Source of the DNA: a virus
Length of the DNA stretch: 33,583 nucleotides
Direction: 5' to 3' (one strand)
IMG/VR virus record: IMGVR_UViG_3300031857_022564
Span: 1 to 33,583 of that record
The stretch's first letter is position 1. The number at the start of each line of letters is the position of its first letter. Below, piece after piece: positions 3,188 through 31,537 of the stretch. Under the pieces are notes generated by a model, which did not search any database, was not told the DNA's origin, and saw only the letters and a program-made list of their open reading frames with translations. The position numbers were made by a program, and so were the translations under genes.

Positions 3188-4909
3188 TTAAATAGTTTCA
3201 TATTCAATTTCAACATTTGAAAAACCCCAAGTGTCAGCGTTGCGGGAAAACATAATATGTTCATGATCTAAATACTTATCAAATGTTTCTACCCAATCCC
3301 AAGCATCATTATAAACTTGTTTTGAAGGGGATGAACCATCATTTTCCATTCCTTTATGAGACATATGATATAAAGGAACATCATATACAGGAATTAAATT
3401 AAATCCATACAACACTGCTTTCTTTTGAGCATTAGTATCTACAAAACAAGCATACAACATCATCTCCTCATATCCTCTAATTTTATACCATAAGTTTTTA
3501 GTTGCTAATTGAAAATCACCACAACAATTAAAAATACTATAATTATCGTTAGGTGTAACTTTAGCTGGGAAGTAACGAGGTTCTGTTGTTTGGTCTAAAT
3601 GTTTTCTATATTCATCTAATTTGTCTAGATTATCTGTTACCCCACTATACTCAATATCTCTTCTACTAAAGGAGTACATTGAATTTTTATCCGCTTTAGA
3701 TATAAATTCATCCATTAGTTCTTTTCTTGGAGGGATAATATCAGTTGTTGATAATACTATCCATTCAGCATCTGTTCTCCTAATTCCAATATTAAAAGCT
3801 AAAACAGTATTACATACTTGAGCTTTAGGATCATCCATAGTCATTAATTTAGCGTATTCAGGAGGAATTACAATATGTTTTAAACGACCTTCATGCTTAA
3901 TTTTATCCATAACATCATACAAGAAACTATGTGTTGGTGAATTCCAATCAACATATACTACCTCATCAAAAGTTTCTAACATTGTGTTAATATGAATAAC
4001 AAATCTTTCATCTTCTTTATACCCATCATTTCTTCCAAACACAACAACTGCTGTTTTACCTGGAGTAGTTATTGGTAAATTATATTTATGTATATCATCT
4101 TTATGGAAGCAAAAGAAGTTACCATTATCAACAACACGACGAATATAATGAGCTATTTCTTCCTTAGTGATAGGACCAGTACAATCATTTTTATTATCTA
4201 AAGGAGAAACATCATAAAGTTCATATCCAAAAGATTTTATAGTATTATAAAAGTCATCAATTTCTTCATCAGTTAAAGCTCTAAAGGCTTCAACCATTAG
4301 TACAGGTCTGTTTTTTTCAATAATAGGTTTAAGTGTTTTAAGAACTTCCTTATCAAATCCTTCTGTATCTGTTTTAATGAAATTAATTTTATCTACTAAT
4401 TGAGGATGGTTTTTAATAACAAAATCATAAACATTTACTCCAGTTACATCTACTTCATATGAATGAAATTGTTTTATTTCATCACCTTTTTCAATACCAT
4501 CAAAAAACCCTCCGTTTGTTCCAATCCCATAAACATTAGGATCTGAATAATGAAATTTGAAGTTTCCATCTTTATGGGTACAAGCTAAATTATAAGGTAT
4601 AATACTAAAATCAGGATTAGCATCAGCATTTTGTTTTAAAACTTCAAATGTTTTTGAGTTTGGTTCAAATGCTAATACATTACCTAATTTACCTACACAA
4701 CTACCAAATACCATAGCAAAAGATCCAACATGAGCTCCAATGTCTAGAACTGTAGATCCTTCTGGGATTAATTCAGAAAAGTTATTGTATCTGAAGATAA
4801 ATGATTCATCATCAAAGTCGGTATGATAAGATACTTTACCGACTTGGTCTATATTTTTTGTTATTATATTGTTGCTACTCCTTGTTTTTGTACTACTGCT
4901 GTTGCACAT
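3188..4909 (-). CDS. FkbM methyltransferase fused to a glycosyltransferase-like domain
   Basis: A 573-residue two-domain protein. The first half (about 40-275) is an FkbM-type SAM-dependent methyltransferase: SAM motif I VLDIGAHVG (54-62), acidic loop AFEPNSKTFEVL, and the family signature FIKTDTEGFDKEVL (about 178-191). The second half (about 285-573) begins TAVVVFGRNDGYKEDER and looks like a GT-A glycosyltransferase, with EWIVLSTTDIIPP at the usual position of the metal-binding acidic motif. It probably methylates and extends a glycan. The ATG at 4909 overlaps the sugar-kinase gene by 46 bases, unusually long here; the first 20-25 residues (MCNSSSTKTR...) look unlike a domain, so the true start may be a non-ATG codon nearer 4863. 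Confidence 0.75.
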   Translation of the reverse strand: MCNSSSTKTRSSNNIITKNIDQVGKVSYHTDFDDESFIFRYNNFSELIPEGSTVLDIGAHVGSFAMVFGSCVGKLGNVLAFEPNSKTFEVLKQNADANPDFSIIPYNLACTHKDGNFKFHYSDPNVYGIGTNGGFFDGIEKGDEIKQFHSYEVDVTGVNVYDFVIKNHPQLVDKINFIKTDTEGFDKEVLKTLKPIIEKNRPVLMVEAFRALTDEEIDDFYNTIKSFGYELYDVSPLDNKNDCTGPITKEEIAHYIRRVVDNGNFFCFHKDDIHKYNLPITTPGKTAVVVFGRNDGYKEDERFVIHINTMLETFDEVVYVDWNSPTHSFLYDVMDKIKHEGRLKHIVIPPEYAKLMTMDDPKAQVCNTVLAFNIGIRRTDAEWIVLSTTDIIPPRKELMDEFISKADKNSMYSFSRRDIEYSGVTDNLDKLDEYRKHLDQTTEPRYFPAKVTPNDNYSIFNCCGDFQLATKNLWYKIRGYEEMMLYACFVDTNAQKKAVLYGFNLIPVYDVPLYHMSHKGMENDGSSPSKQVYNDAWDWVETFDKYLDHEHIMFSRNADTWGFSNVEIEYETI

Positions 4910-5646
4910 TCTTGTGCAAATAAAATTGCTTTTTCTATATCTTTAGTTAAAATATATTCGGCTACTAACCCAGATAAAAATGTATCTCCAGCACCTGAAA
5001 CGTCTTTTACTTTAACTTTTTTTACAGGAAATAGTTTTCCTTTATATTGGCATCCTTTATTAGATAATGTGACTACTAATTTATCTTCAATATTTAAATG
5101 GTTTAAAGTATATTCAGTACGTTCATATTCAACATGGTTAATTTTAATAAATGAAGCATTAAAACACCATTTATCTAATATTTTTTTAGTATCAATAAAC
5201 ACATTAGTATTATTTTCACAAATAAATCGGATATCTTCTTCATCCAAAAATCCTTTATCATAATCACTTATAATAATAGCATCTATTTTTAGAAACATAT
5301 ACTTATTTCCTTTAATTCCTTCAAGTATTTGTTTTGATATTCTATTAACTTTATCGTTTTTATCTACGCGGAGTAATATTTGACCTGATCTATCATCAAC
5401 ATATCTAGTTTTTACTACATTCTCATTATTGTATATAAAATGAGTATTAATACCTAGTGCTTGTAAATTAGCTACTACATTACCTGCCATCCCATTATTT
5501 GTTTCTGTATAGACAGGATTAAATACTGGTACTGGTGCTTCAGGAGCTAATCTAAATGCTGAACCATATATAAATTCATCAATACAAGTATCTCCTATAA
5601 CTAAAATATTAAATTGTTTAAATTCTTCTTTTTTAAGATTACTCAT
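4864..5646 (-). CDS. PfkB-family sugar kinase, HldE/RfaE-like kinase domain
   Basis: A carbohydrate kinase of the PfkB/ribokinase family. The N-terminal block VIGDTCIDEFIYG...RLAPEAPVPVF matches the D-glycero-beta-D-manno-heptose-7-phosphate kinase domain of HldE (RfaE), followed by a Gly-rich substrate motif (NNGMAGNVVANL). The ATP-site/catalytic motif DVSGAGDTFLSG lies near residue 220. The nucleotidyltransferase domain of bacterial HldE is absent, so only the phosphorylation step is encoded. I chose the start at 5646 (260 aa): ATGAGTAA overlaps the upstream stop by 8 bases and the protein then begins MSNLKKEEF; a start at 5676 would add ten basic residues. Heptose is likely, but another sugar phosphate is possible. 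Confidence 0.83.
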   Translation of the reverse strand: MSNLKKEEFKQFNILVIGDTCIDEFIYGSAFRLAPEAPVPVFNPVYTETNNGMAGNVVANLQALGINTHFIYNNENVVKTRYVDDRSGQILLRVDKNDKVNRISKQILEGIKGNKYMFLKIDAIIISDYDKGFLDEEDIRFICENNTNVFIDTKKILDKWCFNASFIKINHVEYERTEYTLNHLNIEDKLVVTLSNKGCQYKGKLFPVKKVKVKDVSGAGDTFLSGLVAEYILTKDIEKAILFAQECATAVVQKQGVATI

Positions 5647-6373
5647 AAATTTCTTGTTTAATTTGTTTTTTATCAAAACCCATAGCCATTAAATTAGCTC
5701 TAGCTTCCTTAACCATATCCTTCCATCCACAAATATAGAATACACAATCTAAATCATTGTATTTACCTTCTTCCATTTGTTTAAAATAATCATTCATTAC
5801 TTCAGTGTATACTTTATGAACATATCCTTGTTTACCATTTATTTCTTCACGAGATAAAATAGGTAAATATTTCATTTGAGGTAAACTTTCTTCCAATTTC
5901 AACATATCATCAACATAAAGCATACTTTGTTTATCACGAGTACCAAATACCATAATTAAATCACCTGTAGGAAGGTTGTTGTTATGAATGTCCCAAAGCA
6001 TACTTCTAAATGGACCAATACCTGTACCAGTACAAATAAAGATATGATTTTTTACTTTATTTTCATCCATAACCATAATGCCTGAAGGTCCAGTGAATGG
6101 TATTTCAACACCAAGTTCTTGTTTCCATAACCATTCTGTACCTGCTCCACCTTCTTTTTTAACAATTACTACTTCAAATAAATTATTATTATTTGGGTAG
6201 CTAGCAATTGAAAAATGTCTTACTCGCTTTGATTGTTTTTCATGAATTGGAAACTCAAATGAAATAAATTGACCTGGAATGAAGTTTAGTTTTTCTAAAT
6301 CAATAGCTTCAAAAAAGAAACGTTTGGTTGTAGGTGTTTCATCTAAAATATGATATAATTTAGCAGTCGGCAT
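5639..6373 (-). CDS. Ferredoxin-NADP reductase-like flavoprotein
   Basis: A 244-residue FAD/NAD(P)-binding reductase of the FNR family. The FAD-binding motif RHFSIAS lies at 52-58 (RxYS in the family, here RxFS), the pyridine-nucleotide motif CTGTGIGPFRSML starts at about 114, and the C-terminal FYICGWKDMVKEA helix plus terminal QEIYE are typical. It lacks a fused [2Fe-2S] ferredoxin domain, so it needs a separate electron acceptor. Within this glycan island it could play the role that E3-type reductases play beside PMP-dependent sugar 3-dehydratases, or it could reduce the radical-SAM clusters; both are inference. It overlaps its neighbours by 8 and 14 bases. Confidence 0.87.
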   Translation of the reverse strand: MPTAKLYHILDETPTTKRFFFEAIDLEKLNFIPGQFISFEFPIHEKQSKRVRHFSIASYPNNNNLFEVVIVKKEGGAGTEWLWKQELGVEIPFTGPSGIMVMDENKVKNHIFICTGTGIGPFRSMLWDIHNNNLPTGDLIMVFGTRDKQSMLYVDDMLKLEESLPQMKYLPILSREEINGKQGYVHKVYTEVMNDYFKQMEEGKYNDLDCVFYICGWKDMVKEARANLMAMGFDKKQIKQEIYE

Positions 6374-6923
6374 TCAATATTTCTTTTACTTTGTCAAAAC
6401 CAATTTTACAATTTTCTTCCCAACTCACATCACCCCCATTATCTGAAACCCATTTATATGCTTTGAATTTGATATTAAAACGTTTAGCTACTTTAGCAAT
6501 AGCAAAACATTCCATATCAAAACAATCACACCTATGTATCATACTAATATAAGATGGTGAATATTTTTCTAATTGTTGTAAATCTACGAAATAATCTGTG
6601 GTAAAACAAGTTAAATCAGAAAGACGGTTTGCAATAATTTGATAAGAGTTTGATTCAAAAGGCGTATGACCATAATTACTTAATGGAGTAGCATCAATAT
6701 CTTGATAAACTAACCCAACATTAATTATATCACCACGTTCAAGTTTTAATGAACCACATGAGCCAATATTAATTATTTCATCATATCCTTCAGTAAATGC
6801 TTTATAAGCAGCTATTGTAGCATTAATTTTACCAACACCACTATAAATTATAGGGTATCCATTTACATCATTTGCTAAACCTGTTTCTAAAGGTGAAGCA
6901 ACAATAATTACTTTTTTACTCAT
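6360..6923 (-). CDS. Nucleoside phosphorylase/hydrolase, MTA/SAH nucleosidase-like
   Basis: A 187-residue member of the PNP/UDP superfamily, short for the family (about 230). Features match 5'-methylthioadenosine/S-adenosylhomocysteine nucleosidase: an early Glu (ASPLETG), SGVGKINAT, NIGSCGSLK, the ribose-contacting DMECFAIA, and an Asp in KWVSDNGG. These correspond to the catalytic Glu-Glu/Asp set of MTAN. The likely reaction releases adenine from SAH, MTA or 5'-deoxyadenosine. The next gene is adenine phosphoribosyltransferase, so adenine would be recycled to AMP. Substrate is inferred from motifs and neighbour. Confidence 0.78.
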   Translation of the reverse strand: MSKKVIIVASPLETGLANDVNGYPIIYSGVGKINATIAAYKAFTEGYDEIINIGSCGSLKLERGDIINVGLVYQDIDATPLSNYGHTPFESNSYQIIANRLSDLTCFTTDYFVDLQQLEKYSPSYISMIHRCDCFDMECFAIAKVAKRFNIKFKAYKWVSDNGGDVSWEENCKIGFDKVKEILNADC

Positions 6924-7395
6924 ATTGAATTAGACTTTTAACATTGTTAGGTTCATGAAGGTATTTTAAATCAATTAATACTAATTTATCAATTACTTCA
7001 TAACCGGCTTTAATACACAGCTGTTCTACAGCATTCATTGTACCACCAGTAGCATATACATCATCTACAATTACTACTTTACCTGTTCCAGGTTGTATTT
7101 CTAAAGTATCTTCTCCATATTCTAAAGAATATGTTTGACTCATTACTGGAGGTGGTAATTTGCCTTTTTTACGACACATTATAAATCCACCACCATTAGA
7201 AGCAGCAATTGCTGAAGCGAATATAAATCCTCTTGAATCAATTCCTATCCAATAATCAGGATGTTTAACTAGTCCTTTCATATTGTGGATAGCATAAGGT
7301 AACCAAGTTGATTTTAATAAAGGAGATATATCCTTAAAAGAGACCCCTGGCTTAGGAAAGTCAGGAATCTCATTTACATATTTTTTAAAGTCCAT
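6916..7395 (-). CDS. apt: Adenine phosphoribosyltransferase
   Basis: A 159-residue APRT when read from the ATG at 7395. It begins MDFKKYVNEIPDFPKPGVSFKDISPLL, the classic N-terminus of Apt (xxIPDFPxPGIxFxDIxPLL). The PRPP-binding motif VVIVDDVYATGGT lies at about 107-119, and the flexible loop (KKGKLPPPVMSQTYSLEYG) is intact. It converts adenine plus PRPP to AMP. An upstream ATG at 7443 would add 16 hydrophobic residues (MNGLLIILYYL) inside the neighbouring gene and is rejected. It overlaps the nucleosidase gene by 8 bases, suggesting the two work in sequence. Confidence 0.93.
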   Translation of the reverse strand: MDFKKYVNEIPDFPKPGVSFKDISPLLKSTWLPYAIHNMKGLVKHPDYWIGIDSRGFIFASAIAASNGGGFIMCRKKGKLPPPVMSQTYSLEYGEDTLEIQPGTGKVVIVDDVYATGGTMNAVEQLCIKAGYEVIDKLVLIDLKYLHEPNNVKSLIQYE

Positions 7396-7891
7396 AATGT
7401 TTATCTCTTTTAGATAGTATAGGATTATCAATAGGCCATTCAATTCCTAAATTAGAATCTTGCCAATTTAAACTAAATTGATCTTCTACATCAGGATATT
7501 TACCTGAATAAGCCCATTTGTAATGGAATATAGAAAAATCACTCATAACTAAAAAGCCATTTCCAAATCCTGGAGGTAATAATACAGATTGTCTAGTTTT
7601 GTCTGATAACATCATACTTGTCCAGTTACCATAGTTACGTGAATCCGGTCTATTATCAACTACTACAAAATATAATTCACCATACAAACATTCTACTAAT
7701 TTCCATGACTTATAATCCCCATGAATTCCTCTTAAAACATGTTTTCTAGAGGTTGATATTTTATCATGATTAAATTTTAAATCAGTTCTTGGAAATTCAT
7801 CTTCTTTCCATATAGTCCATAATTCACCTCTATAATCATAATGGACATTATGTTTATAAACCCCAACATCCGGTAATACTTGTACTCTCAT
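7385..7891 (-). CDS. RmlC-like NDP-4-keto-sugar 3,5-epimerase (cupin)
   Basis: A 168-residue cupin of the dTDP-4-dehydrorhamnose 3,5-epimerase family. Diagnostic parts are YDYRGELWTIW (normally DxRGxxxE/xW), SRKHVLRGIHGD (the LRGxH block carrying the catalytic His), GELYFVVVDNRPDS, and VLLPPGFGNGFLVMSD. These enzymes epimerise C3 and/or C5 of nucleotide-linked 4-keto-6-deoxy sugars. Its place beside the ColD-like dehydratase suggests it acts on a 4-keto deoxysugar of the same pathway. Whether it is a 3,5-, 3- or 5-epimerase cannot be decided. Confidence 0.85.
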   Translation of the reverse strand: MRVQVLPDVGVYKHNVHYDYRGELWTIWKEDEFPRTDLKFNHDKISTSRKHVLRGIHGDYKSWKLVECLYGELYFVVVDNRPDSRNYGNWTSMMLSDKTRQSVLLPPGFGNGFLVMSDFSIFHYKWAYSGKYPDVEDQFSLNWQDSNLGIEWPIDNPILSKRDKHYGL

Positions 7892-9067
7892 TTATAATGA
7901 ATTTAATACATTAATTAAAGTATCAATTTTTTCTCTTTCTAATGAAGGATAGTTTCCAACATACCAACCAAAGTGATGAACATGATCCATATTTGGGAAT
8001 TGAGAATGATCAATATTATAGTGTTTTTTAAACCAAGGCTGTCTTAATTGATTACCTCCACCAGATAAACCACGTCTGAATTCAATTCCGTTTTCACGTA
8101 ATGTTGATTCTACTTTATTTCTAAATTCAAAATCACCATCTTTTAATACAACTATGAAAGCGTAATTACATTGTCCATCCATTTCAATATCAGTATGATA
8201 TTTAGTTGAATCTAAATGTTCCATAAAGTACTTAAAATTATCAACACGATGTAAATTATTTGAATCTAGTTTTTTAATTTGAGATAAACCAATAACAGCA
8301 TTCAATTCAGTACTTCTGAAGTTGTGAGCAGGGCGAATAAAAATAAAGTCAGGATTCAAATCAGGGTTAGCATCAATGATTTCTTGTTTCATTTCATTAT
8401 TAGTCATTTCCCTCATCATACCATGAGAACGTAAAGCTCTACATACTTGATAGAATTTTTCATCATTAGTACAAATCATTCCGCCTTCAATAGTAGACAT
8501 ATGATGAGCAAAATAGAAACTAAAATTACTTGCAAACCCATAAGTACCTACTTTTTGTCCTTTAAATGTTGTACCATGAGATTCACAAACGTCTTCAATT
8601 AATAAAATGTTATTTTCATTACATAATTGAATTAATTCGTCTGTCAACCCATTAACACCAAGTACGTGAGTTAAAAATATTGCTCTTGTATTTGGAGTAA
8701 TAACTTGTTTTAATTTCTCAATATCAAATGAAAAATTCTTTAAATTAATATCACAAAATACAGGTTTCATTCCACTAAAGACAACAGATGAAATATCTGA
8801 AATCCAAGTAAGTGGTGGAACAATAATTTCACCTTCACCATGAATGTAATTCAAGGCCAACATAGTTAACTCGTTTGCTGATGCTCCGGAGTTAACCATT
8901 AAGTTATATTTAGTACCTAACCATTCACCCCAAGCATTTTCAAACTCAATAACTTTAGGTCCATTAGTTAGTTTAGGAATTTGGTCTTGACTTAAAAAGT
9001 CAATTAATGCGTTAACATCTTCCTTATCAATGTTATCGCTCATCAGCGGTAAATAAAAATTACTCAT
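7892..9067 (-). CDS. PLP/PMP-dependent NDP-sugar 3-dehydratase, ColD-like
   Basis: A 391-residue DegT/DnrJ/EryC1-family protein. The region where sugar aminotransferases carry the PLP-binding Lys reads FSFYFAHHMSTIEGGM (about 182-197), with His188/His189 instead of Lys. This is the hallmark of PMP-dependent C3 dehydratases (ColD, and E1/RfbH of the ascarylose and 3,6-dideoxyhexose pathways), which remove the 3-hydroxyl. The cofactor Asp lies in LLIEDVCESHG. I see no four-Cys [2Fe-2S] motif, so ColD is a better match than E1. The start at 9067 gives TAAT-ATG spacing after the upstream stop; an ATG at 9100 would add 11 residues inside the neighbouring gene. Confidence 0.87.
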   Translation of the reverse strand: MSNFYLPLMSDNIDKEDVNALIDFLSQDQIPKLTNGPKVIEFENAWGEWLGTKYNLMVNSGASANELTMLALNYIHGEGEIIVPPLTWISDISSVVFSGMKPVFCDINLKNFSFDIEKLKQVITPNTRAIFLTHVLGVNGLTDELIQLCNENNILLIEDVCESHGTTFKGQKVGTYGFASNFSFYFAHHMSTIEGGMICTNDEKFYQVCRALRSHGMMREMTNNEMKQEIIDANPDLNPDFIFIRPAHNFRSTELNAVIGLSQIKKLDSNNLHRVDNFKYFMEHLDSTKYHTDIEMDGQCNYAFIVVLKDGDFEFRNKVESTLRENGIEFRRGLSGGGNQLRQPWFKKHYNIDHSQFPNMDHVHHFGWYVGNYPSLEREKIDTLINVLNSL

Positions 9068-9068
9068 A

Positions 9069-9605
9069 TTATTTTTCTCCATAATAGTCTCCCCACTCAA
9101 CTAATACTGTTGGTCGGTTATCTGTTCTTTCATAAGCATATTGGAATGCTTCAAATATTTGATAAGGTTCATCTAAACGAATGATATCAACCCAGTCACA
9201 CATAGCTTTAAAACCAGAAGTAAAATCAGCTATATGTTGATGCTGAGGATGTAATGGGCGTTGAGATCCAATTGATGTTCTAATAATCACTTTAGGAGTA
9301 TAACCACCATTAGACATAATTTTAATTTTATCTAAATGGTTAACCAATTGGTTAGCTGCTAGTAATAAAAAGTTCCAACGTGGGTAAATTGAAATAGGTA
9401 CAGTTCCATTTAAAGCCATTCCTATTGTTATCCCCATCTGCATATCTTCATTTACAGGCATTTCTAACATTTTGTTTCTATCAACATCTTTTAAAGTGTT
9501 GGTAATAGCAGTTCCAGCATACTCAACTGCTTGTCCTAAAAACAAGGTATCTGATTTGGTGTTTAACCAATCCATTGACCTTTTTAATTCATCAAAGTAT
9601 TTCAT
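9069..9605 (-). CDS. Short TPP-enzyme pyrimidine-domain subunit (E1-beta/transketolase-like)
   Basis: A 178-residue protein corresponding to the Pyr domain of 2-oxoacid dehydrogenase E1-beta or transketolase. It carries LEMPVNEDMQMGITIGMAL (about 47-65), in which the conserved Glu that activates the TPP aminopyrimidine sits, and the SIYPRWNFLLLAANQLVNHLDK helix. The usual C-terminal transketolase domain (about 130 residues) is missing. It lies next to a PP-domain partner (9609..10217), so the two would form a split TPP-dependent enzyme. In the sugar cluster it most plausibly transfers a two-carbon unit; the real donor and acceptor are unknown. Confidence 0.77.
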   Translation of the reverse strand: MKYFDELKRSMDWLNTKSDTLFLGQAVEYAGTAITNTLKDVDRNKMLEMPVNEDMQMGITIGMALNGTVPISIYPRWNFLLLAANQLVNHLDKIKIMSNGGYTPKVIIRTSIGSQRPLHPQHQHIADFTSGFKAMCDWVDIIRLDEPYQIFEAFQYAYERTDNRPTVLVEWGDYYGEK

Positions 9606-9608
9606 TTT

Positions 9609-10217
9609 TTAAAATTGAATTCGTTGTCCAGCACCAGCATGAGGATATTTAGTTTCATATTGGTAATAAATTATTTTTCTTGTTTCATTTGCAAAACTTA
9701 GTTCTTCTATGTTCCAAACACTTCTTGTTTCAGTGCAAACTGATTTACCATTATCTTCAATAATAAAAGTAATGGGCAAATCATGATTAACAGCATATTT
9801 CCAATTTTCATAGAATGTACCTGTTTCAGAAGTCATATCACCTACAAAACACCAAACATGGTTTGTACCTCCTTTACGTTTAATATCTAAAGCAGTACCT
9901 GTTGCAATAGGAATATTTCCAGTTACAATAGCAGATGAATAAATATTATACTCAGGATAACATAATGTAATAGATTTACCATCTAAAATATCTTGTTTAA
10001 TTTGTTCTTGAGGTACTCCTTTCAATAAACATTGATAGTGAGATCTCCAAGTACAAAAAATCCAATCATCAGATTGTACATTTTTAAAAATATCTATCAT
10101 TTGTTCCTCATTTCCATAGTACAAATGAACGGGGGATTTAATCATAGCGTTGTTAAAACAATCAGCAATATGATCTTCAAAAGCAATTAATTGTTCTTTA
10201 GTTAGAAGATTTTCCAT
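9609..10217 (-). CDS. Short TPP-binding PP-domain subunit (E1-alpha-like)
   Basis: A 202-residue partner of the preceding protein. The TPP diphosphate/Mg motif is GDMTSETGTF...FIIEDNG, starting near residue 124, with the spacing of the GDGx(24-27)NN motif; the Gly of GDG is Met and the last pair is DN. The block TWRSHYQCLLKGVP resembles the E1-alpha segment FRxHxxxLxxG, and GNIPIATGTALDIKRKG matches the conserved helix before GDG. Family E1-alpha proteins are normally 320-370 residues, so this is a minimal version. It overlaps the radical-SAM gene by 20 bases. Confidence 0.77.
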   Translation of the reverse strand: MENLLTKEQLIAFEDHIADCFNNAMIKSPVHLYYGNEEQMIDIFKNVQSDDWIFCTWRSHYQCLLKGVPQEQIKQDILDGKSITLCYPEYNIYSSAIVTGNIPIATGTALDIKRKGGTNHVWCFVGDMTSETGTFYENWKYAVNHDLPITFIIEDNGKSVCTETRSVWNIEELSFANETRKIIYYQYETKYPHAGAGQRIQF

Positions 10218-11745
10218 TTTCTATAATTTTGCGTTTTAATTTTACTTTAAGCATTTCATTAATATTATCAACAGCTATTTGTCCAAATTTATTTTTTACT
10301 TTTTCTAAAAATGGAGGATATGAATGATATTCATCAAATGCTTTATCTCTAAATTCTAATACTTCAGCCGCTGAAAGTGTTTCTGTAGGTAAAGGTAATG
10401 TTTCATATCCATGAAATGAATAACCTTCATAACTATTAGGAAGTGGAGTTCCATTCATAACAGCATCTTTATATAATTTACTACCAGGTAAAGCCATAGC
10501 CGCGTAAGCGTTCCATCCAAAAGTACATAATTCTTTTGATAAATCCAAAGTTTTTTGCATACTTTCTTTAGTATCACCAGGCAATCCAAAAATATAATTT
10601 GCCATTACTTCAATATCCGCCTCATGTACTTGTTCAATAACTTTATTAATATCAACATCCTCAAACTTCCCTTTAGATACTTCTAATCTAACTGTTTTAT
10701 CACCACTTTCAATACCTAAAGCTAACCATTTAATACCAGCTTCACGAACCAGTTTTAATAAATCAGGGCGGCGGACTGTATCTACTCTTGAATAAGCCCA
10801 CATTCTAAGAAATTTACCATAACCTCTATCTCTTAACAACTCACAAAAAGGTACATAATATTTTCTATTAAGTAAAAACATTTCATCAGTAATTTTAATA
10901 GTGTAAACACCCAATTCAACTAATTTATCAAATTCTTTAATAATAAATTCAGGTGACCAATATCTCATAGCACTATAATTTCCTGCTACTCCAATTTCAT
11001 CATCATCATCTCTATTTAAAATATTAATCATACAAAAATCACACCCAAATTGACAACCTAAAGAAGTTTGAATAGCAGCGTAAGGTGAACGTTTATTTTG
11101 ATCATATTCTGCATGCCACATAGGCGCTCTATATAAATCTAAAGGACTTTCTTTCATTGGAAGTAAATCCCAAGCATAACCTGGAAGGTCAATGTCCATT
11201 CTATCATTAGGTACTACTTTTTCAGTTGGATTGATTTTAGGTATTCCATTTTCTCTCCAAACTAAGCCTTTAATATGTCCTAAATCATCAACATTAATAT
11301 TCTCTTGAGCTAATACATTAAGTAAAGCATAAACTCCTTCATTGGTAAAACCGAAATCAATTGATGGTTCATCTTTTAATGCTTTAACAGGTACTGCTTG
11401 AATATAAGATCCAAGATAAGATATAGGAGTTTTAATCCCGCATTCTTTTAAATACTCAGATAAATAAACAGCACCACTCATACTTACTGTTCCGGCATTT
11501 ACATTCTGTCCATAAACAACAAAACAAATAAGGCGAGGATTTAATAATTGAACTCGTTCTAATACTTGTTCTCTATTTAATTGCTCAGCATTAGCATCTA
11601 TAAGTCCTACAGTATATCCTTTAGAACGACAAGATTCAGCTAATAGTAAAGCCCAAGTTGGAGGTTCAATCGCTGAATAATCATTAGCTAGCCCCTGGTA
11701 AACACCAGTGGCGTTTCCAGGAGCTATAAATAGTACATCTATCAT
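10198..11745 (-). CDS. Radical SAM enzyme with N-terminal B12-binding-like domain
   Basis: A 515-residue radical SAM protein. The 4Fe-4S motif is CQFGCDFC (CxxxCxxC) about residues 230-237, with the SAM-binding region KITDEMFLLN and EAGIKWLALGIESGD typical of the BchE/HpnP-like class. The first 140 residues are a Rossmann-like domain as in cobalamin-binding radical SAM enzymes, but I see no clear DxHxxG motif, so B12 may be bound base-off without His or not at all. Such enzymes methylate or rearrange unreactive carbons; within the sugar cluster it may build a branched or methylated sugar. It overlaps the SDR gene by ATGA. Confidence 0.82.
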   Translation of the reverse strand: MIDVLFIAPGNATGVYQGLANDYSAIEPPTWALLLAESCRSKGYTVGLIDANAEQLNREQVLERVQLLNPRLICFVVYGQNVNAGTVSMSGAVYLSEYLKECGIKTPISYLGSYIQAVPVKALKDEPSIDFGFTNEGVYALLNVLAQENINVDDLGHIKGLVWRENGIPKINPTEKVVPNDRMDIDLPGYAWDLLPMKESPLDLYRAPMWHAEYDQNKRSPYAAIQTSLGCQFGCDFCMINILNRDDDDEIGVAGNYSAMRYWSPEFIIKEFDKLVELGVYTIKITDEMFLLNRKYYVPFCELLRDRGYGKFLRMWAYSRVDTVRRPDLLKLVREAGIKWLALGIESGDKTVRLEVSKGKFEDVDINKVIEQVHEADIEVMANYIFGLPGDTKESMQKTLDLSKELCTFGWNAYAAMALPGSKLYKDAVMNGTPLPNSYEGYSFHGYETLPLPTETLSAAEVLEFRDKAFDEYHSYPPFLEKVKNKFGQIAVDNINEMLKVKLKRKIIENGKSSN

Positions 11746-12680
11746 AAGTTGGTAAAATCTTTATCTTTAAATTTTCTAATTAGTTGGTATCCTTTAATCA
11801 ATTCTTGAATTCCATCTTCAAGTGTAAATGTAGGTATCCATCCTTGGGATTCCAATTTAGAGTTAGAAACCATATAATTTCTTTGATCAAAATCTTGCTT
11901 AAAGTTATTTTCTACAATTACTAAATCAGGAACATATAATTTAATAGTTTCTGCTAATTCTAATTTAGTACAATTTGCTGATGTTAAACCAACATTAAAA
12001 GCATTGTTATTGCATTTTTCATAATTTTCAATCATGAATAAAAAAGCATTAGCTATATCCCTAATGTGTATATAATTACGGATAAAATGAGACTCGAACA
12101 ATACTAAATAACCATCTGTAACTGCTTTATAAACGAAGTCTTGCACTAATAAATCCATTCTCATACGGTATGACATACCAAACACAGTAGCTAGTCTTAA
12201 CGCGATTCCATTACCTGAGTCTAGCACTGCTTTTTCAGCATTACATTTAGTTTCAGCATAAAGTGATAATGGTTTGAATGGAGAATCTTCAGTAATAATT
12301 TCAGTTGATGATCCATATTGACTATTTGTGTTTGGAATAATTACTTTTTGATCTTTAGTAATCCATTTAGTAATATTTTTTACTTGTTCATAATTTACTT
12401 TTACAGTCAATTCAGGTTGTGCTTTACAAGCAGGCATTCCTACAATTGCTGCTAAGGGAATAATTACATCATTTTTTTCTACTAATGATTTAAGTAAAGA
12501 TTCATTAGTAACATCTCCTAAAATAAAATCAAAATTAGGATGATAAGAAAAAGGTGCTACTGATGTTTGTTTGTAACTTAAATTGTCTAATACGGTAACT
12601 ACGTATCCTTTATTTAGTAAAACCTCTGTTAAAACGGAGCCTAGATATCCAGCTCCTCCTGTTATTAAAACTTTTTTCAT
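11742..12680 (-). CDS. SDR-family NDP-sugar epimerase/reductase
   Basis: A 312-residue extended short-chain dehydrogenase. NAD(P) motif GGAGYLG lies at 8-14, followed by an acidic residue in VLDNLSY that favours NAD. The catalytic YAETK (YxxxK) is near residue 142, and the preceding block is NTNSQYG, with Ser/Thr rather than the Asp-Glu pair of 4,6-dehydratases, so it is more likely an epimerase or 4-ketoreductase. Substrate-binding RNYIHIRDIANAF and AFNVGL are typical of nucleotide-sugar members. It probably acts before or after the dehydratase in the island. Confidence 0.87.
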   Translation of the reverse strand: MKKVLITGGAGYLGSVLTEVLLNKGYVVTVLDNLSYKQTSVAPFSYHPNFDFILGDVTNESLLKSLVEKNDVIIPLAAIVGMPACKAQPELTVKVNYEQVKNITKWITKDQKVIIPNTNSQYGSSTEIITEDSPFKPLSLYAETKCNAEKAVLDSGNGIALRLATVFGMSYRMRMDLLVQDFVYKAVTDGYLVLFESHFIRNYIHIRDIANAFLFMIENYEKCNNNAFNVGLTSANCTKLELAETIKLYVPDLVIVENNFKQDFDQRNYMVSNSKLESQGWIPTFTLEDGIQELIKGYQLIRKFKDKDFTNL

Positions 12681-13549
12681 ATATTGTTTAAATCTATTAT
12701 TTGTTGAATTAAATTATCTAATGTATAAGGAAAAAATGAGTTTTTAACTAACTCATAATTTTTGTTAATGTATGGTAATCTAGAATAATAATCATCAGGA
12801 GTTAAATTATTTATAATATTAAGTAATTCTTCTTTAGTTTCAAAACTAATAATTCCTCTTTTATCAAAATGTTCTCCTATATTTGGACAACCCCAATAAA
12901 TAGGAAGTGTTTTAGAAGCAAAAGCATCCCCAATTTTCTCAGTATACCAATTATTTGATTTAATATTTTCAACAGCGACATGAAACATATTTTCATTATA
13001 ACAGATTCGTTTAGGAATATTATTAAAAGTAGCACTTTCAGGTCTAGTACTTCTTCCTATACCTCCTTTATTATAATCGTCCCAATTGAAATCATCTAAA
13101 ACATAATACCATCGGTTTGGGGTTTGTATTTGATCTTTTAATTTATAAATTTCTTGTCTGAATCTATGACCTTCTACTAATGTTTTTGCTCCTGATAGAA
13201 ATGTTGTTTCAAATTTTTTATCCACAACAGTTTCAAAAGTATTGAGCCACTCATCTCCCTCACTCCTAGCACCATGATCAAATAATATAGCATTATCACA
13301 ATTATTTAATATATTTTCACTCCAAGTGAATATACCACTAAATAAATTATGATTTTGAATAACCCAATTATGCATTCCAAAAAATTCATTAGGTTCATGA
13401 ATGATTAGAAAATTATAAGGGTTGTGTTGTAAGTCACTATGATTTTGGGGAATGTAGTCGTTGAATATAGTTATTGGTTTATCACTATATTTTGAAAACA
13501 AAAACTCAAAATCGTTACTTGTTTTAAAATTAGTAAATATTTTTAACAT
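12677..13549 (-). CDS. GT10-like glycosyltransferase (fucosyltransferase family)
   Basis: A 290-residue protein with the C-terminal donor-binding signature of family 10 alpha-1,3/1,4-fucosyltransferases: VAVENIKSNNWYTEKIGDAFASKTLPIYWGCPNIGEHF (about 191-228, with the TEKIxDAF and PIYWGxPNI blocks). The N-terminal half is less conserved, as usual for the acceptor domain. It would transfer a 6-deoxyhexose (fucose or a related sugar) from a GDP-sugar. Since the nearby dehydratase is ColD-like (GDP-4-keto-6-deoxymannose 3-dehydratase in known systems), a GDP-3,6-dideoxyhexose is a reasonable donor, by inference. It overlaps neighbours by ATGA and TAATG. Confidence 0.8.
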   Translation of the reverse strand: MLKIFTNFKTSNDFEFLFSKYSDKPITIFNDYIPQNHSDLQHNPYNFLIIHEPNEFFGMHNWVIQNHNLFSGIFTWSENILNNCDNAILFDHGARSEGDEWLNTFETVVDKKFETTFLSGAKTLVEGHRFRQEIYKLKDQIQTPNRWYYVLDDFNWDDYNKGGIGRSTRPESATFNNIPKRICYNENMFHVAVENIKSNNWYTEKIGDAFASKTLPIYWGCPNIGEHFDKRGIISFETKEELLNIINNLTPDDYYSRLPYINKNYELVKNSFFPYTLDNLIQQIIDLNNI

Positions 13550-14262
13550 TATATACTAACTTTTTCAAACAACATATACCAGTTCCAACTTTGTATCATT
13601 TCATCAGGTAGTAAAGATTCACTATCTAATTTAGGATGATAAGGACACATTAGGTTAGATCTATATTCACCTAAAAATTTAAAATTATGATATTCCATAA
13701 ATAATAACCAGTTATCATAATCAAATAATCCTCTATAAATCCAGTTATGACCCATTCTCCAGTTAGGAACACTTACAAAAAACAAACCTCCATCTACTAA
13801 TAATTTATGAGATTGTCTCATAATATGTGAAGGGTTGAAAATATGTTCTAGAAAATCATTAGCCATAACCATATGGTACTCTTCATCTAACCCTTCAATA
13901 TCTAAACCTTCAGACATATCTTTAACAAAGAATTTACCTTTATAATTTCTTTCATTAAATACTTTTTCTGCTACTGGTTTATCAATTAAATGGTAATCTA
14001 ATTCATGTTTTGATTTTTTATGAATATATTGTGCTAATACTCCTGGGCCTGGGCCTAGTTCTAAGATTTTAGATACTCCTGTCTCATTTATTATATTACT
14101 AATAATATCTGATTCATGCTCATATCTATCAACCCATGCTTGTTCTTCTAATCGACTTACTGTGTAATTGTGTTCATTTTCCTCAGCCCATTCTGTCATA
14201 TCTTTAGTATCTGCTGTATGAACTCGAGGTGCTTCTTCATTTGGATGTCTATATAGTCCCAT
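13549..14262 (-). CDS. Class I SAM-dependent methyltransferase
   Basis: A 237-residue methyltransferase. SAM motif I is ILELGPGPGVL (about 66-76), the acidic ribose-binding residue follows in YHLIDKP, and the post-motif region MVMANDFLEHIFNPSHIMRQSHKLLVDGGLFFVSVPN is typical of methyltransferase-11/23 members. The target is unknown; its place between two glycosyltransferase genes suggests an O-methylated sugar or lipid-linked glycan. It begins with a TAATG one-base overlap and contributes SAH, which the island's nucleosidase could remove. Confidence 0.83.
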   Translation of the reverse strand: MGLYRHPNEEAPRVHTADTKDMTEWAEENEHNYTVSRLEEQAWVDRYEHESDIISNIINETGVSKILELGPGPGVLAQYIHKKSKHELDYHLIDKPVAEKVFNERNYKGKFFVKDMSEGLDIEGLDEEYHMVMANDFLEHIFNPSHIMRQSHKLLVDGGLFFVSVPNWRMGHNWIYRGLFDYDNWLLFMEYHNFKFLGEYRSNLMCPYHPKLDSESLLPDEMIQSWNWYMLFEKVSI

Positions 14263-21776: not shown

Positions 21777-23390
21777 TTACATCATTCCCATCATACCTCC
21801 AAGCCCATCGTCATTCTTGTTTTCTTCGGGCTTGTCAACTACAACAGCTTCTGTTAATAAAATAGTACCTGCTACTGAAGCAGCATTTTCAAGTGCAGTA
21901 CGAGTTACTTTAGATGGATCAATGATGCCTAATTCTCTCATATCATCAAAATCTTCTTCCATTAAATTAAATCCATACCAATAATCACCTCCAGTTGCTC
22001 CAGACAATGCATTATAGATATCTTCTAATTCATAGCCAGCATTAGATAAAATTTTCTTAAATGGTTCAGCACAGGCATTATAAACAATCCTACCACCAAT
22101 ACTGTTAACATCAGTGATTCCATTTCTAGCATGTAACAAAGCCATTCCACCACCAGGTACAATTCCTTCTTCTAAAGCAGCTTTAGTAGCTTGTAAAGCA
22201 TCATCAACACGGTCTTTCTTTTCCTTCATTTCTGATTCAGTAAATCCACCTACATGTACAATTGCTACACCACCAATAAATTTAGCTAAACGTTCTTGTA
22301 ATTTTTCACGCTCATAAGGAGATTGTGCTTTATCAATTTGTGATTGTAATTCTTCAATACGGTTTGTAATTTTATCTGAATCACCATTACCATCAACAAT
22401 AGTTGTTTGGTCTTTATTTACTGTAATAACACGTGCTTGACCAAACCAATCCCAACTAAATTTATCAAGTTTCATACCTTTTTCAGTACTGAATACTTGT
22501 CCACCTGTCATGATAGCAATATCTTCAAGCAACAGTTTACGACGGTCTCCAAAATCAGGAGCTTTAATAGCAACTGTTTTCAAAATACCTCTTGCTTTGT
22601 TCACAATCAAAGTAGCTAATGCTTCACCATCTACATCTTCAGCAATAATAACCAATGGTTTATTTTGGTTAGATACAGCTTCTAAAATAGGCAACAATTC
22701 TTTTACAGTAGTAAACTTCTTATCAGCAATCAAAATATAAGGATCATTGATAGTAGTACTCATAGTGTTATTATCAGTTACAAAATAAGGTGATTTGTAA
22801 CCTCTATCAAACTGCATACCTTCTACTGTTTCAAGATATGTTTCTCCATTTTTAGATTCTTCAATAAACACAACACCTTCACGACCTACTTTTTCCATCG
22901 CTGTAGCAATCAATTCACCTACTTCAGGATCATTATTTGCTGAAATAGTAGCGATTTGTTTAAGTTGTTCTTCAGATGAAATATCTTCTTTGATATTATC
23001 ATGAATGTAGTTAATTACTTCTTTTACTGCTTTATCAATACTGCGTTTAATTTCAACAGCGTTTTCACCATGGTTAAGATACTTAAGACCTTGTTTAGCC
23101 ATTTCACGAGCCAACAAAGTTGAAGTAGTAGTACCATCACCAGCATTGTCTGCTGTTTTAATAGCTGCTTGTTTAACTAATTGTACACCTAATTCTTCAA
23201 TTGGATCTTCCAATGTGATTGACTTAGCTACTGTAACACCATCTTTAGTTGATTGAGGAATACCTCCGTTTGCAATAACCACATTACGTCCATTAGGACC
23301 AAGTGTTGCTGTTACAGCATCTGCTAACTTATCGATACCATCAATCATTTTTTTCCTTGCCTCAGGGCCGAATTCTATAATTTTGCTCAT
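21777..23390 (-). CDS. groEL: GroEL (chaperonin 60)
   Basis: A 537-residue chaperonin covering the whole cellular length (about 545). Key elements are [10 protein letters not shown] (normally GPKGRNV), the ATP-site [10 protein letters not shown], the apical YKSPYFVTD substrate/GroES-binding helix region, [23 protein letters not shown] (with the catalytic Asp), and a GGMMGMM tail. All catalytic positions I can align are intact, so the ring should be functional. It lies one base from groES. It may fold the phage's own capsid or enzymes when the host chaperonin does not suffice. Confidence 0.97.
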
Positions 23391-23391
23391 A

Positions 23392-23685
23392 TTAATCTTT
23401 ATTTACTTTTGCTAAAACTTGATTTTCAGGACCAATCCAATACTCTTCACCTTCATGTTCTAATTTAGAAAAACCCATTGTAGGTAATACTACAATATCT
23501 CCTTCTTGAACAACAGTATCAATCCAAGTTCCGGTCACTGAATAATATCCTTTACCTACTGTTACTACTTTTCCAAGTTTGTTTTTCTCATTTCCCAAAT
23601 CGGGAACAATAATACCACCATATGAAGTTTCTTCTGCTTCCATAGGTTTTACAATAATTGCGTTGTATAATGCTTCTAATTTCAT
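23392..23685 (-). CDS. groES: GroES (chaperonin 10)
   Basis: A 97-residue co-chaperonin, the usual length. The mobile loop that contacts GroEL is EETSYGGIIVPD (about 18-29), and the KLGKVVTVGKG, VQEGDIVVLP and HEGEEYWIGPENQVLAKV strands complete the Cpn10 fold. It lies next to groEL in the normal groES-groEL order. Its presence shows that this phage does not rely on host GroES alone, as T4 does when it replaces GroES with Gp31. Confidence 0.96.
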   Translation of the reverse strand: MKLEALYNAIIVKPMEAEETSYGGIIVPDLGNEKNKLGKVVTVGKGYYSVTGTWIDTVVQEGDIVVLPTMGFSKLEHEGEEYWIGPENQVLAKVNKD

Positions 23686-28140: not shown

Positions 28141-28311
28141 CTATTTTAATTTATTTAATATTTTGTCCCAAAACAAGTCTAACTTGTCTTTTCTTGCTTT
28201 ACATCCGCAATCATCATAGCCCATTTTTTTAGCTATGAATAATGCAGTTCGGTGGCCTTGTCCAAATGTAATAATATGAATTACAGTTTCAACAAAACCA
28301 CCTAGCTTCAT
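28141..28311 (-). CDS. Small phage protein with CGC motif (56 aa)
   Basis: A 56-residue protein from ATG at 28311 to TAG at 28141-28143. It starts MKLGGFVETVIHIITFGQG and contains DDCGCKARKDKLD. The 'FGQG...AxxxAxKxGYxDCGCxxRKxxL' pattern is, from memory, a small protein found across Bacteroidota phages, function unknown. The CGC pair may bind a metal or form a disulfide. The start overlaps the FolE stop (TAATG), and it fills the gap before the dUTPase/dCTP-deaminase gene. Confidence 0.65.
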   Translation of the reverse strand: MKLGGFVETVIHIITFGQGHRTALFIAKKMGYDDCGCKARKDKLDLFWDKILNKLK

Positions 28312-29000
28312 TAGATTTGATGTCCTCCGTTATTGATTTTAATTGAGTCAAAAAACTCTTTACGTGCTTGATTAGCATTATCCATAAATACTCCTGATGC
28401 TTTAGTAGTAACCATTGAAGCACCTTGATGTTTTACACCTCTACAGCTTACACAGTTGTGAGTAGCAACTACAGTTACAATAACACCTTTATTGTTTTCA
28501 CAAATCTTTTCTACTGCTTGATGAATAGCTGATGTAAGTTGTTCTTGAATAGCTCCTCGACGTCCAAAATGTTCTACAATACGATTCAATTTACTTAAAC
28601 CAATTACAGAACCACCTTCACCTACAATGTAACCAATATGAACTACACCTCCAATTGTTTGGTGGTGGTGTGAACACATTGATGTGAGAGGAATATTACG
28701 TTCAATAACAATACCATCATAACCATCACTTGGGAATGAAGTAATTTCAGACATAGCATCATAACGACCTTTCCATAAATCAAATACATAGGCTTTAGCT
28801 ACACGACGAGGTGTATCTGAACTATTAGGATCATTTTTCCAGTCACATCCTAGAGCATCTAAAAACTTACCATATGCTTCAGCAGCTTCATCCACCATTG
28901 CCCATTTTTCTTTTTCAGTGAATGGAAAACCAGGAGCAACCCCATTAGCATAACCCATTTTTACTACTTCTAAATCTAATTTAAATGTTTTATTATTCAT
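28311..29000 (-). CDS. folE: GTP cyclohydrolase I
   Basis: A 229-residue FolE-type enzyme making 7,8-dihydroneopterin triphosphate from GTP, the first step of preQ0 and folate synthesis. Zinc ligands are visible: CSHHH (C109, H111-H113) and CVSC (C183, C186). IPLTSMCSHHHQTIGG, HIGYIVGEGGSVIGLSKLNRIVEHF and the QEQLTSAIHQAV helix match FolE. With QueD, QueE and QueC nearby it completes the preQ0 route. The N-terminal 15 residues are extra; an ATG at residue 15 is an alternative start. HPRT lies upstream. Confidence 0.93.
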   Translation of the reverse strand: MNNKTFKLDLEVVKMGYANGVAPGFPFTEKEKWAMVDEAAEAYGKFLDALGCDWKNDPNSSDTPRRVAKAYVFDLWKGRYDAMSEITSFPSDGYDGIVIERNIPLTSMCSHHHQTIGGVVHIGYIVGEGGSVIGLSKLNRIVEHFGRRGAIQEQLTSAIHQAVEKICENNKGVIVTVVATHNCVSCRGVKHQGASMVTTKASGVFMDNANQARKEFFDSIKINNGGHQI

Positions 29001-29017
29001 AACTTTTTATTAATATA

Positions 29018-29521
29018 TTAATCTTCTGGTACGTAGCCAAGTATATGAGGAAGATTCCTTTTAGTCCCATCAGTAGCATCTAAACCATACCCTACTAACC
29101 AATGTTCATCTTTTAATTCAAAACCATAAACCAAACCATCTGTGTTTGAATAATGTTTTTTAAATAATGTTACTGGAGTAATAGAATTTGGATTGAGGTA
29201 TTGAAGGTGCTTAATTAAACGATTCATAGTGTTACCTGAGTCATAGATGTCATCTACAAGATATACATCTTTTCCTTCAATATCAATAGTAATTGATTTT
29301 AGGATTCGTATTTCACCTTGTTTGGTTTCATCATATGATTTAGCACTAATAAAATCAATATGGCACTCCCCTACTTGTTTTACTAAGTCTGTAAAAAACA
29401 TAAACGCTCCATTTAAAACACAAATGAATACTGGAGGTTGCTTATGTTGTTTCTTTTTAATGTTGTAAGCAATTTCGCCTACTTTGTTTTTAATTTCTCT
29501 TTCTGTAAATAAAGTTATCAT
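29018..29521 (-). CDS. hpt: Hypoxanthine(-guanine) phosphoribosyltransferase
   Basis: A 167-residue purine salvage enzyme converting hypoxanthine or guanine plus PRPP to IMP or GMP. The PRPP-binding motif YLVDDIYDSGNTM is at about 87-99, FICVLNGAFMFFTDL and the loop KSYDETKQGE match HPRT, and a C-terminal VGYGLDATDGTKRNLPHIL ends the fold as usual. It can increase the GMP/GTP pool that FolE consumes, and lies beside folE. It starts with ATGA overlap to the upstream thioredoxin-like gene. Confidence 0.93.
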   Translation of the reverse strand: MITLFTEREIKNKVGEIAYNIKKKQHKQPPVFICVLNGAFMFFTDLVKQVGECHIDFISAKSYDETKQGEIRILKSITIDIEGKDVYLVDDIYDSGNTMNRLIKHLQYLNPNSITPVTLFKKHYSNTDGLVYGFELKDEHWLVGYGLDATDGTKRNLPHILGYVPED

Positions 29522-29757
29522 AGAACTAATTTTTTCAAAACTTCTTTAATTTCTTCTGGTCCTTCAAACTTATGTTTGCCTTTTTGGTCTTCAATTACTA
29601 AAGTAGGAACCCATTGTACATCATAGGATTCAGTAAGAATTTCATCTTCATGGGTGTTAACCATCTCAATACCTAAAGCATTACTAAACTCAGAAATGAT
29701 AGGTTTTAAATCAGCGTATTTACCACACTCGTTGGTATAAAAAAAGGTTATATTCAT
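29518..29757 (-). CDS. Thioredoxin-fold protein with single active-site Cys
   Basis: A 79-residue thioredoxin/glutaredoxin-like protein. It begins MNITFFYTNECGKYADLKPIISEF, where the usual CxxC is CGKY, so only the first Cys remains. The cis-Pro part WVPTLVIEDQKGK and the C-terminal helix are conserved. It may act as a monothiol redoxin, a binding scaffold, or be inactive. A second thioredoxin with intact CVPC lies at 31995. ATGA overlaps on both sides place it in the nucleotide operon. Confidence 0.72.
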   Translation of the reverse strand: MNITFFYTNECGKYADLKPIISEFSNALGIEMVNTHEDEILTESYDVQWVPTLVIEDQKGKHKFEGPEEIKEVLKKLVL

Positions 29758-30329
29758 TTTATTAGATAGTTTCTAAAGTTACTTTGTGTTGGTGATACAT
29801 TTGGAAAATAATATTTTTCAACTTGATTTCCAAACTTAATTATTTTATAAAATCCATCAGGTACAGTTGCTCCTGTAGGTAGTTTTAAGGATGTTTTACT
29901 ATACACCATTCTGATTTCTACATTAACAGTGTTGGTTTTAGCAAGTTCACGCTCATATGACTCTAATAAACGCCATACACCACGATTTAAACGTTCATGC
30001 TGTAATACACAATTCACATAAGTGAATGTTTTATATAACATTTCTTTAGTACAGTTAAAATCAGCAGCGGGGGCACAATGTCCTTTATCATAAACGTTAG
30101 CAGCATAATCAGCATTATCTGAAGTAATTAATCCTGCTTGAACATAAAAATCCATTCCAGTACGAGGAGCAGTACCTGTAGGGCATTGTACTGTATAAGT
30201 AACCCATTTAGGTTGTTGTAACACCTCAGAATAAACAGATGTGAAAATATCTGTTTTAATGTAAACTGAATCTCTTTGAGCAAAGGCAACTAGAGGAAAT
30301 AAAAACAATAATAATAATAGCTTTTTCAT
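29754..30329 (-). CDS. Secreted DNA/RNA non-specific endonuclease
   Basis: A 191-residue nuclease of the NUC1/Serratia-type family when read from ATG at 30329. The N-terminus MKKLLLLLFLFPLVAFAQ is a strong signal peptide with cleavage after AFA. The catalytic motif is DKGHCAPAADF (DRGHLAPAADF in the family; His84 as base), followed by NCVLQHERLNRGVWRLLE with the metal-binding Asn. Four Cys in the mature part could form disulfides. It would act in the periplasm or outside. An upstream ATG (30416) would place 29 residues inside the thioesterase gene and hide the signal peptide, so I reject it. Confidence 0.87.
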   Translation of the reverse strand: MKKLLLLLFLFPLVAFAQRDSVYIKTDIFTSVYSEVLQQPKWVTYTVQCPTGTAPRTGMDFYVQAGLITSDNADYAANVYDKGHCAPAADFNCTKEMLYKTFTYVNCVLQHERLNRGVWRLLESYERELAKTNTVNVEIRMVYSKTSLKLPTGATVPDGFYKIIKFGNQVEKYYFPNVSPTQSNFRNYLIK

Positions 30330-30342
30330 ATTGTTATAAATA

Positions 30343-30744
30343 TTACAATTTTGAGGGTGGAGTATTAAATGCCTTTTTAACCTGTTCTGAGATGGGAATT
30401 GGTACTCCTTCTTCATCTACTCTAACAAAGGTCATATTTGTAGCTAATAAAACAACCTCATCACCTCTAAATACATTAAATCCTCTTGCTTCAATACTAA
30501 AAGTAGCAGATGTGTTTCCTACTTTTACCATTTCAGCATATATTTTAACAAGTTGTTTTTCTTTAGCAGGTTTTAGGAAAACACACTTATCCATAGCAAT
30601 AGTAATCATATTTTGGCTTCTGCATTTTTCCATTGCATAAGCAGCTACCGCGGCATCTATCCAGCTAAGCAATTTGCCGCCGAATAGATTACCGTGAAAG
30701 CCTAAATCTGATTTTTTAACGGGGTGGGTAGATAGTAAATCCAT
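30343..30744 (-). CDS. Acyl-CoA thioesterase, hotdog fold (YciA-like)
   Basis: A 133-residue hotdog thioesterase. It opens HPVKKSDLGFHGNLFGGKLLSWIDAAVAAYA, the YciA/ACOT motif in which GNLFGGxLLxWID carries the catalytic Asp, followed by the FLKPAKEKQLVKIYAEMVKVGNTSATFSIEARG strands. Such enzymes cut acyl-CoA to free acid and CoA. This is unusual for a phage; it may alter host lipid or CoA pools during infection or liberate acyl groups for envelope changes. It starts at TAATG overlap with queE and is followed by the secreted nuclease. Confidence 0.87.
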   Translation of the reverse strand: MDLLSTHPVKKSDLGFHGNLFGGKLLSWIDAAVAAYAMEKCRSQNMITIAMDKCVFLKPAKEKQLVKIYAEMVKVGNTSATFSIEARGFNVFRGDEVVLLATNMTFVRVDEEGVPIPISEQVKKAFNTPPSKL

Positions 30745-31535: not shown

Positions 31536-31537
31536 AA

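Follow-up and report, generated by a model that had tools for sequence, protein, structure and literature searches.

The nucleosidase Pfs cleaves SAH, MTA and 5'-deoxyadenosine, by-products which inhibit the enzymes that use SAM, and Escherichia coli needs Pfs against their inhibitory build-up (PMC10986504). The same article, in the passage which cites its reference 19, reports that E. coli Pfs is required for biotin synthase in vivo. Radical SAM enzymes in particular are inhibited by 5'-deoxyadenosine (PMC8102628). As for phages, the part of one article which deals with VP_139, a phage of Lake Baikal methylotrophs, describes its MTAN and its SAM synthetase as a SAM-cycle set (PMC7678222). In the literature that we searched, whose coverage is partial, we found no description of a phage pair made of an MTAN-like nucleosidase and an adenine phosphoribosyltransferase (APRT), which is the subject of the present analysis.

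We analysed a stretch of 33,583 bases, called the window in what follows, which is the entire IMG/VR virus record IMGVR_UViG_3300031857_022564, a linear fragment. Its main genes all lie on the minus strand, and the features discussed below are these:

3188-4909: FkbM-domain methyltransferase
4864..5676, minus strand: RfaE/HldE-like sugar kinase, downstream of the pair (TIGR02198 2.7e-37, under the cut-off); not an MtnK
5639..6373, minus strand: FAD/NAD reductase, directly downstream of the nucleosidase (NAD_binding_1 1.5e-17)
6360..6923, minus strand: MTAN-like nucleosidase, 187 aa (Pfam PNP_UDP_1 2e-12)
6916..6923, minus strand: 8-base overlap of the APRT and nucleosidase genes; coding strand ATGAGTAA, APRT stop and nucleosidase start
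6916..7395, minus strand: APRT, 159 aa (NF002636 4e-50, 169.7 bits, cut-off 125)
7385..7891, minus strand: RmlC-like sugar epimerase, directly upstream of APRT (dTDP_sugar_isom 4.7e-40)
7892..9064, minus strand: DegT/RfbH-like PLP enzyme (best NCBIfam match RfbH 8e-58, under the cut-off)
9069..10217, minus strand: split TPP-dependent E1 beta/alpha pair (E1_dh 6.8e-15, Transket_pyr 2.2e-09)
10198..11745, minus strand: B12-type radical SAM enzyme, 515 aa (Radical_SAM PF04055 1e-17, 64.8 bits, cut-off 29.5)
11742..12680, minus strand: NAD-dependent epimerase/dehydratase, 312 aa (Epimerase 2.5e-36)
13549-14262: UbiG-like methyltransferase
30744-31535: QueE, radical SAM

The original prediction, made from the letters of the window, started from the overlap of 8 bases between the nucleosidase and APRT genes, and we confirmed it: bases 6916-6923 are common to both ORFs. 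Its count of two radical SAM enzymes (the B12-type enzyme and QueE) is also correct, as is that of at least two methyltransferases (the FkbM domain of 3188-4909 and the UbiG-like protein). Overlaps are found at 26 of the 49 minus-strand junctions of the window, four of them being of exactly 8 bases; moreover, the nucleosidase gene overlaps the reductase gene by 14 bases and the APRT gene overlaps the RmlC-like gene by 11. This means that the 8-base overlap is in itself ordinary for this window. It is likewise present in 28 of 80 APRT-bearing phage loci. What goes beyond chance is that the pair is conserved, rather than that its genes overlap.

We observed this conservation in two scans of IMG/VR, which gave 528 contigs with relatives of the nucleosidase and 152 with relatives of APRT, 80 of each being kept. 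The nucleosidase gene lies directly downstream in 65 of the 80 APRT loci, further off in 3, and is missing from 12, while 46 of the 80 nucleosidase loci have no APRT within the stretch examined. When we retained the distinct phage loci in which both genes are at most 1.5 kb apart (87 loci after removal of duplicates), the order was APRT then nucleosidase, on the same strand, in every one of them. One Acinetobacter "phage" hit (H1) was excluded, being surrounded by bacterial housekeeping genes. The two genes also adjoin in 49 of 80 bacterial relatives; two Verrucomicrobiota (L435, L438) have the same tandem, with an APRT 73% and a nucleosidase 50-54% identical to those of the window. In quick trees of either protein these two Verrucomicrobiota fall among the phage relatives of the window, so that the module has passed either from phages to bacteria or from bacteria to phages. 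The distances between nucleosidases and those between APRTs are correlated (Mantel r 0.41 overall; 0.60, p 0.001, in the phages outside the window's group), as co-inheritance with some reshuffling would produce. Hence, we concluded that the APRT-nucleosidase pair is a real, conserved module.

The surroundings of the module vary between lineages. Of the 87 phage loci, 17 have a SAM synthetase gene at most 0.5 kb away from APRT and 20 have ThyX within 3 kb. The SAM synthetase, identified by PF02773 in L115, adjoins the pair in L115, L116, L120, L125, L127 and others among the 17 loci, and ThyX and a clamp-loader-like gene are often near; over 75 kb of the L120 record, a motif screen detected neither radical SAM nor DNA-methylase motifs. 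In phage C48C1 (OQ984149, Kyanoviridae), CDS0108-0109 are APRT then nucleosidase, beside ribonucleotide reductase. Genes resembling those around the window's pair are scarce in the pair loci of other lineages, where we found only distant matches to the B12-type radical SAM and RmlC proteins (L067/L068) and one RfaE-like kinase (L060). Three phage contigs of 38-80 kb (L061, L075 and L082; records G076, G086 and G089) carry 12-18 radical SAM genes each and a nucleosidase without APRT. Five other nucleosidase-bearing phage contigs (L021, L027, L031, L033, L034) have a gene of the IMP dehydrogenase/GMP reductase family nearby, that is, a second purine-recycling gene.

The AlphaFold model of the nucleosidase (pLDDT 93.3) has the fold of MTANs: its best VIA-align match is the H. 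pylori MTAN (Z 20.6), and all 50 matches listed for it are entries of the MTAN family. A profile built from 58 phage homologues and compared with the PDB has MTANs at its top (4e-27), the purine nucleoside phosphorylases reaching just 1e-6. The protein nevertheless stays under all the curated MTAN cut-offs (31.3 bits for 73.8 with TIGR01704, 41.6 for 169 with PRK05584, 52.2 for 129 with PRK05634). We mapped its residues onto E. coli MTAN, whose sequence was checked against the PDB. The catalytic residues are in place, and E13, M137, E138 and D161 correspond to E12, M173, E174 and D197 of the E. coli enzyme, and the equivalents of the catalytic E12, E174 and D197 are kept in 57, 58 and 58 of the 58 phage homologues. 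F151 and P113 (E. coli MTAN numbering) are retained too. In the same numbering, R193 is replaced by Lys in 58 of 58 homologues, F207 by Trp in 57 and E172 by Asp in 57. These substitutions make the 5' pocket unlike that of the textbook enzyme, so that substrate specificity is not readable from the residues. Taken together, sequence and model describe a compact and remote MTAN, for which we predict a release of adenine from 5'-deoxyadenosine and MTA, and possibly from SAH. Its partner passes the curated APRT cut-off (NF002636) and possesses the PRPP-binding loop VVIVDDVYATGGT, with a core kept across four aligned rows; it is predicted to convert adenine and PRPP into AMP.

The cassette which surrounds the pair appears to be devoted to a sugar or glycan. 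The B12-type radical SAM protein has a radical SAM domain and the CxxxCxxC motif, in the form CQFGCDFC, while the match of its N-terminus to the B12-binding family PF02310 is weak (3e-06, 27.5 bits for a cut-off of 32.1). In the DegT-family protein a His takes the place of the PLP Lys (FYFAHHMS), as in 3-dehydrases of the RfbH type. This His, the split TPP E1 pair and the B12-type radical SAM protein suggest an unusual deoxy or branched sugar. The epimerase has counterparts in most nucleosidase-bearing cassettes (85-95% identity), and the TPP E1 pair is exchangeable, being missing or replaced in L002, L003, L016, L017 and L243. The FAD/NAD reductase is optional (5 of 17 related loci); a role as electron donor is possible. 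It is directly 3' of the nucleosidase gene in two unrelated phages, at 5639-6373 in the window and at 10512-11279 in L075, where the copy lies within a gene cluster that includes 13 radical SAM genes. Elsewhere, the window encodes genes of the 7-deazaguanine (preQ0) pathway (FolE-like, QueE, QueD and QueC-like, 28311-33451) and a phage-encoded GroEL and GroES-like pair (21777-23685).

We examined the association between nucleosidase and radical SAM genes in 49 records, made of relatives found through the DNA polymerase and of large nucleosidase-bearing records. All 12 nucleosidase-positive records have a radical SAM gene of large size (511-533 aa frames, at least 65 bits), against 0 of 37 negative ones (Fisher p 1e-11), several of the twelve positives being near-duplicates, so that the independent events are fewer. 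With the positives from the DNA polymerase search alone, the counts are 4 of 4 against 0 of 37 (p 1e-5). The gene bordering the cassette slot is sequenced in 30 of the 37 negatives, none of which has the radical SAM gene; missing sequence therefore does not explain most of the negatives. The DegT gene behaves similarly: orthologues (72-98%) are found in all 12 nucleosidase-bearing records and in none of the others, a cousin at 43-47% being present in seven negatives. Three of these seven, read gene by gene, have the cousin in the same slot, along with RmlC, RfaE and TPP-enzyme genes, and are devoid of the radical SAM gene, of the nucleosidase and of APRT. Conversely, cassettes which lack APRT (L013, L016, L243) or have an exchanged TPP pair retain nucleosidase, radical SAM, DegT and epimerase genes. 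Among 17 related loci, the radical SAM gene was found in 15, the other two being L004, where the copy lies just beyond the end of the locus, and L011.

These comparisons separate the two members of the pair. In the window's phage group we observed no case of APRT without nucleosidase; since APRT can be lost while the nucleosidase is kept, it is the nucleosidase which is always there and APRT which is optional. Such a pattern would follow if getting rid of the by-product were more important than recovering adenine. We must note that nucleosidase, radical SAM, DegT and epimerase genes belong to one cassette, and that linkage or hitchhiking alone could produce their association.

Outside the window's group the picture is different. 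In 24 phage records, the distance between nucleosidase and radical SAM genes is no shorter than random (Fisher p 0.48). Among records of at least 50 kb, radical SAM genes are present in 18 of 22 nucleosidase-bearing ones and in 1 of 14 random ones (p 1.5e-5), an enrichment which lineage explains, as 7 of 8 T4-like relatives without nucleosidase also have radical SAM genes. Phage lineages well stocked with radical SAM genes, such as the T4-like phages, thus mostly do not carry the nucleosidase. In three records where a SAM synthetase adjoins the pair, radical SAM genes are missing. Relatives of UvsW were tried as a control set and rejected, being mostly short contigs. The common denominator of the pair across lineages is SAM metabolism, and the tie to radical SAM is specific to the window's group. 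The original prediction had proposed a comparison of phage genomes for co-occurrence with radical SAM genes, and the association which it anticipated exists within this group, a general link to radical SAM genes being unsupported. It had also derived a need from both radical SAM enzymes of the window. For the B12-type enzyme this has good support within the window's phage group; it does not extend to QueE, which we rejected as the driver because radical SAM genes of QueE size occur in many nucleosidase-free relatives, with no association.

We consider it rather probable that the pair is a unit for by-product disposal and adenine salvage serving the B12-type radical SAM enzyme of the sugar/glycan cassette. 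The nucleosidase would hydrolyse SAM-derived adenine nucleosides of the 5'-deoxy type to adenine. Its main substrate would most likely be 5'-deoxyadenosine from the B12-type enzyme, encoded 3 kb upstream; MTA may be cleaved as well and, less probably, SAH. APRT would join the released adenine to PRPP and so yield AMP, and the deoxyribose remainder would probably exit the cell; no MtnK was recognised in the window. The purpose of the unit would be to keep the phage radical SAM step from stalling through product inhibition.

Another part of the original prediction, in which SAH from methyltransferases contributes to the need, was not supported as the main reason for the nucleosidase. Disposal of SAH for the FkbM-type and UbiG-like methyltransferases would suit the MTAN fold and residues as well as the gene content of the window, and a B12 radical SAM methylase, if the window's enzyme is one, would itself produce SAH. 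However, FkbM-type genes are present in the nucleosidase-free L240-L242, and SahH is encoded in 19 of 20 bacterial genomes carrying this nucleosidase (hand-picked from among the relatives, some incomplete), so that SAH is less likely to be the main substrate. In about ten of these 20 genomes the nucleosidase is the sole protein of the PNP_UDP_1 superfamily, which fits a duty on MTA and 5'-deoxyadenosine; the genome comparison indirectly favours these two over SAH as the substrates handled routinely, and we regard SAH disposal as quite improbable. A general purine economy, in which adenine from the SAM by-products of host and phage goes into nucleotides and the place in the cassette is a chance acquisition with no special tie to radical SAM, is unlikely to a lesser degree. 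In bacteria the pair belongs to the housekeeping genes and, elsewhere, phages have it beside ThyX, SAM synthetase or ribonucleotide reductase, away from radical SAM genes. In the window's group, on the other hand, the nucleosidase outlasts APRT, which would be odd if AMP were the aim, and it occurs only alongside the B12-type radical SAM gene.

The two other explanations which we weighed seem to us very improbable, both to the same extent. Genes which rebuild nucleotides occur in phages, and APRT could in principle re-use adenine freed by ATP- or NAD-cleaving host defences in order to restore AMP. Against such a counter-defence, the nucleosidase produces adenine instead of removing it, APRT is always accompanied by the nucleosidase in the window's group, and PADLOC gave no relevant match, the match of APRT to ShosT (0.0075) being at the level of noise. 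The enzyme might also hydrolyse another adenine nucleoside: aminodeoxyfutalosine nucleosidases share the fold and are among the best structural matches, but the protein scores far under the cut-off of the futalosine hydrolase model TIGR03664 (24.6 of 124.7 bits) and no menaquinone genes were seen in the window.

Returning to the disposal of 5'-deoxyadenosine with salvage of its adenine, we advance a wider proposal tentatively, as somewhat more apt to be wrong than right: the pair may be a dedicated and transferable phage unit which clears 5'-deoxyadenosine for the phage's own radical SAM chemistry during infection and which, joined elsewhere to SAM synthetase, closes a phage-encoded loop from ATP through SAM and adenine to AMP. 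Radical SAM enzymes are known to be limited in cells by 5'-deoxyadenosine, the product which inhibits them, and phage annotations seldom count its disposal as part of the pathway. A conserved APRT-nucleosidase module, which accompanies a particular radical SAM enzyme in one group of phages and adjoins SAM synthetase in another, would make the handling of SAM by-products a recognisable phage function, and would provide a testable marker, the presence of the nucleosidase predicting an active, SAM-hungry phage enzyme. Such units are now easily missed, as neither the nucleosidase nor the APRT nor the B12-type radical SAM protein of the window matches any family in PHROGs v4.

Finally, the pair can be set against the known systems. 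With E. coli Pfs/MtnN (1JYS) the phage nucleosidase shares the fold, the catalytic Glu/Glu/Asp and the equivalents of Met173 and Phe151; it differs by its length (187 aa against 232 aa), by its Lys, Trp and Asp in place of R193, F207 and E172, and by falling under all curated cut-offs. VP_139, as far as the part of the article concerned with it goes, resembles the window in having a phage-borne MTAN, there accompanied by SAM synthetase, methyltransferases and radical SAM proteins and interpreted with them as a SAM cycle; the gene setting is another one, and no pairing with APRT is shown there (PMC7678222). In C48C1, as in the window, APRT precedes and overlaps the nucleosidase, both being annotated as hypothetical; the proteins are about 32-33% identical to ours, and the neighbour there is ribonucleotide reductase. 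There remain the small bacterial "nucleosidases" of the PRK05634 type, from Verrucomicrobiota, Burkholderiales and marine Gammaproteobacteria. In Burkholderiales the APRT and nucleosidase genes diverge and do not overlap, unlike the phage tandem, and the glycan cassette of the window is absent around the two verrucomicrobial tandems examined (L435, L438). In their length, their residues and their APRT neighbour, these bacterial proteins are nevertheless as in the phage.
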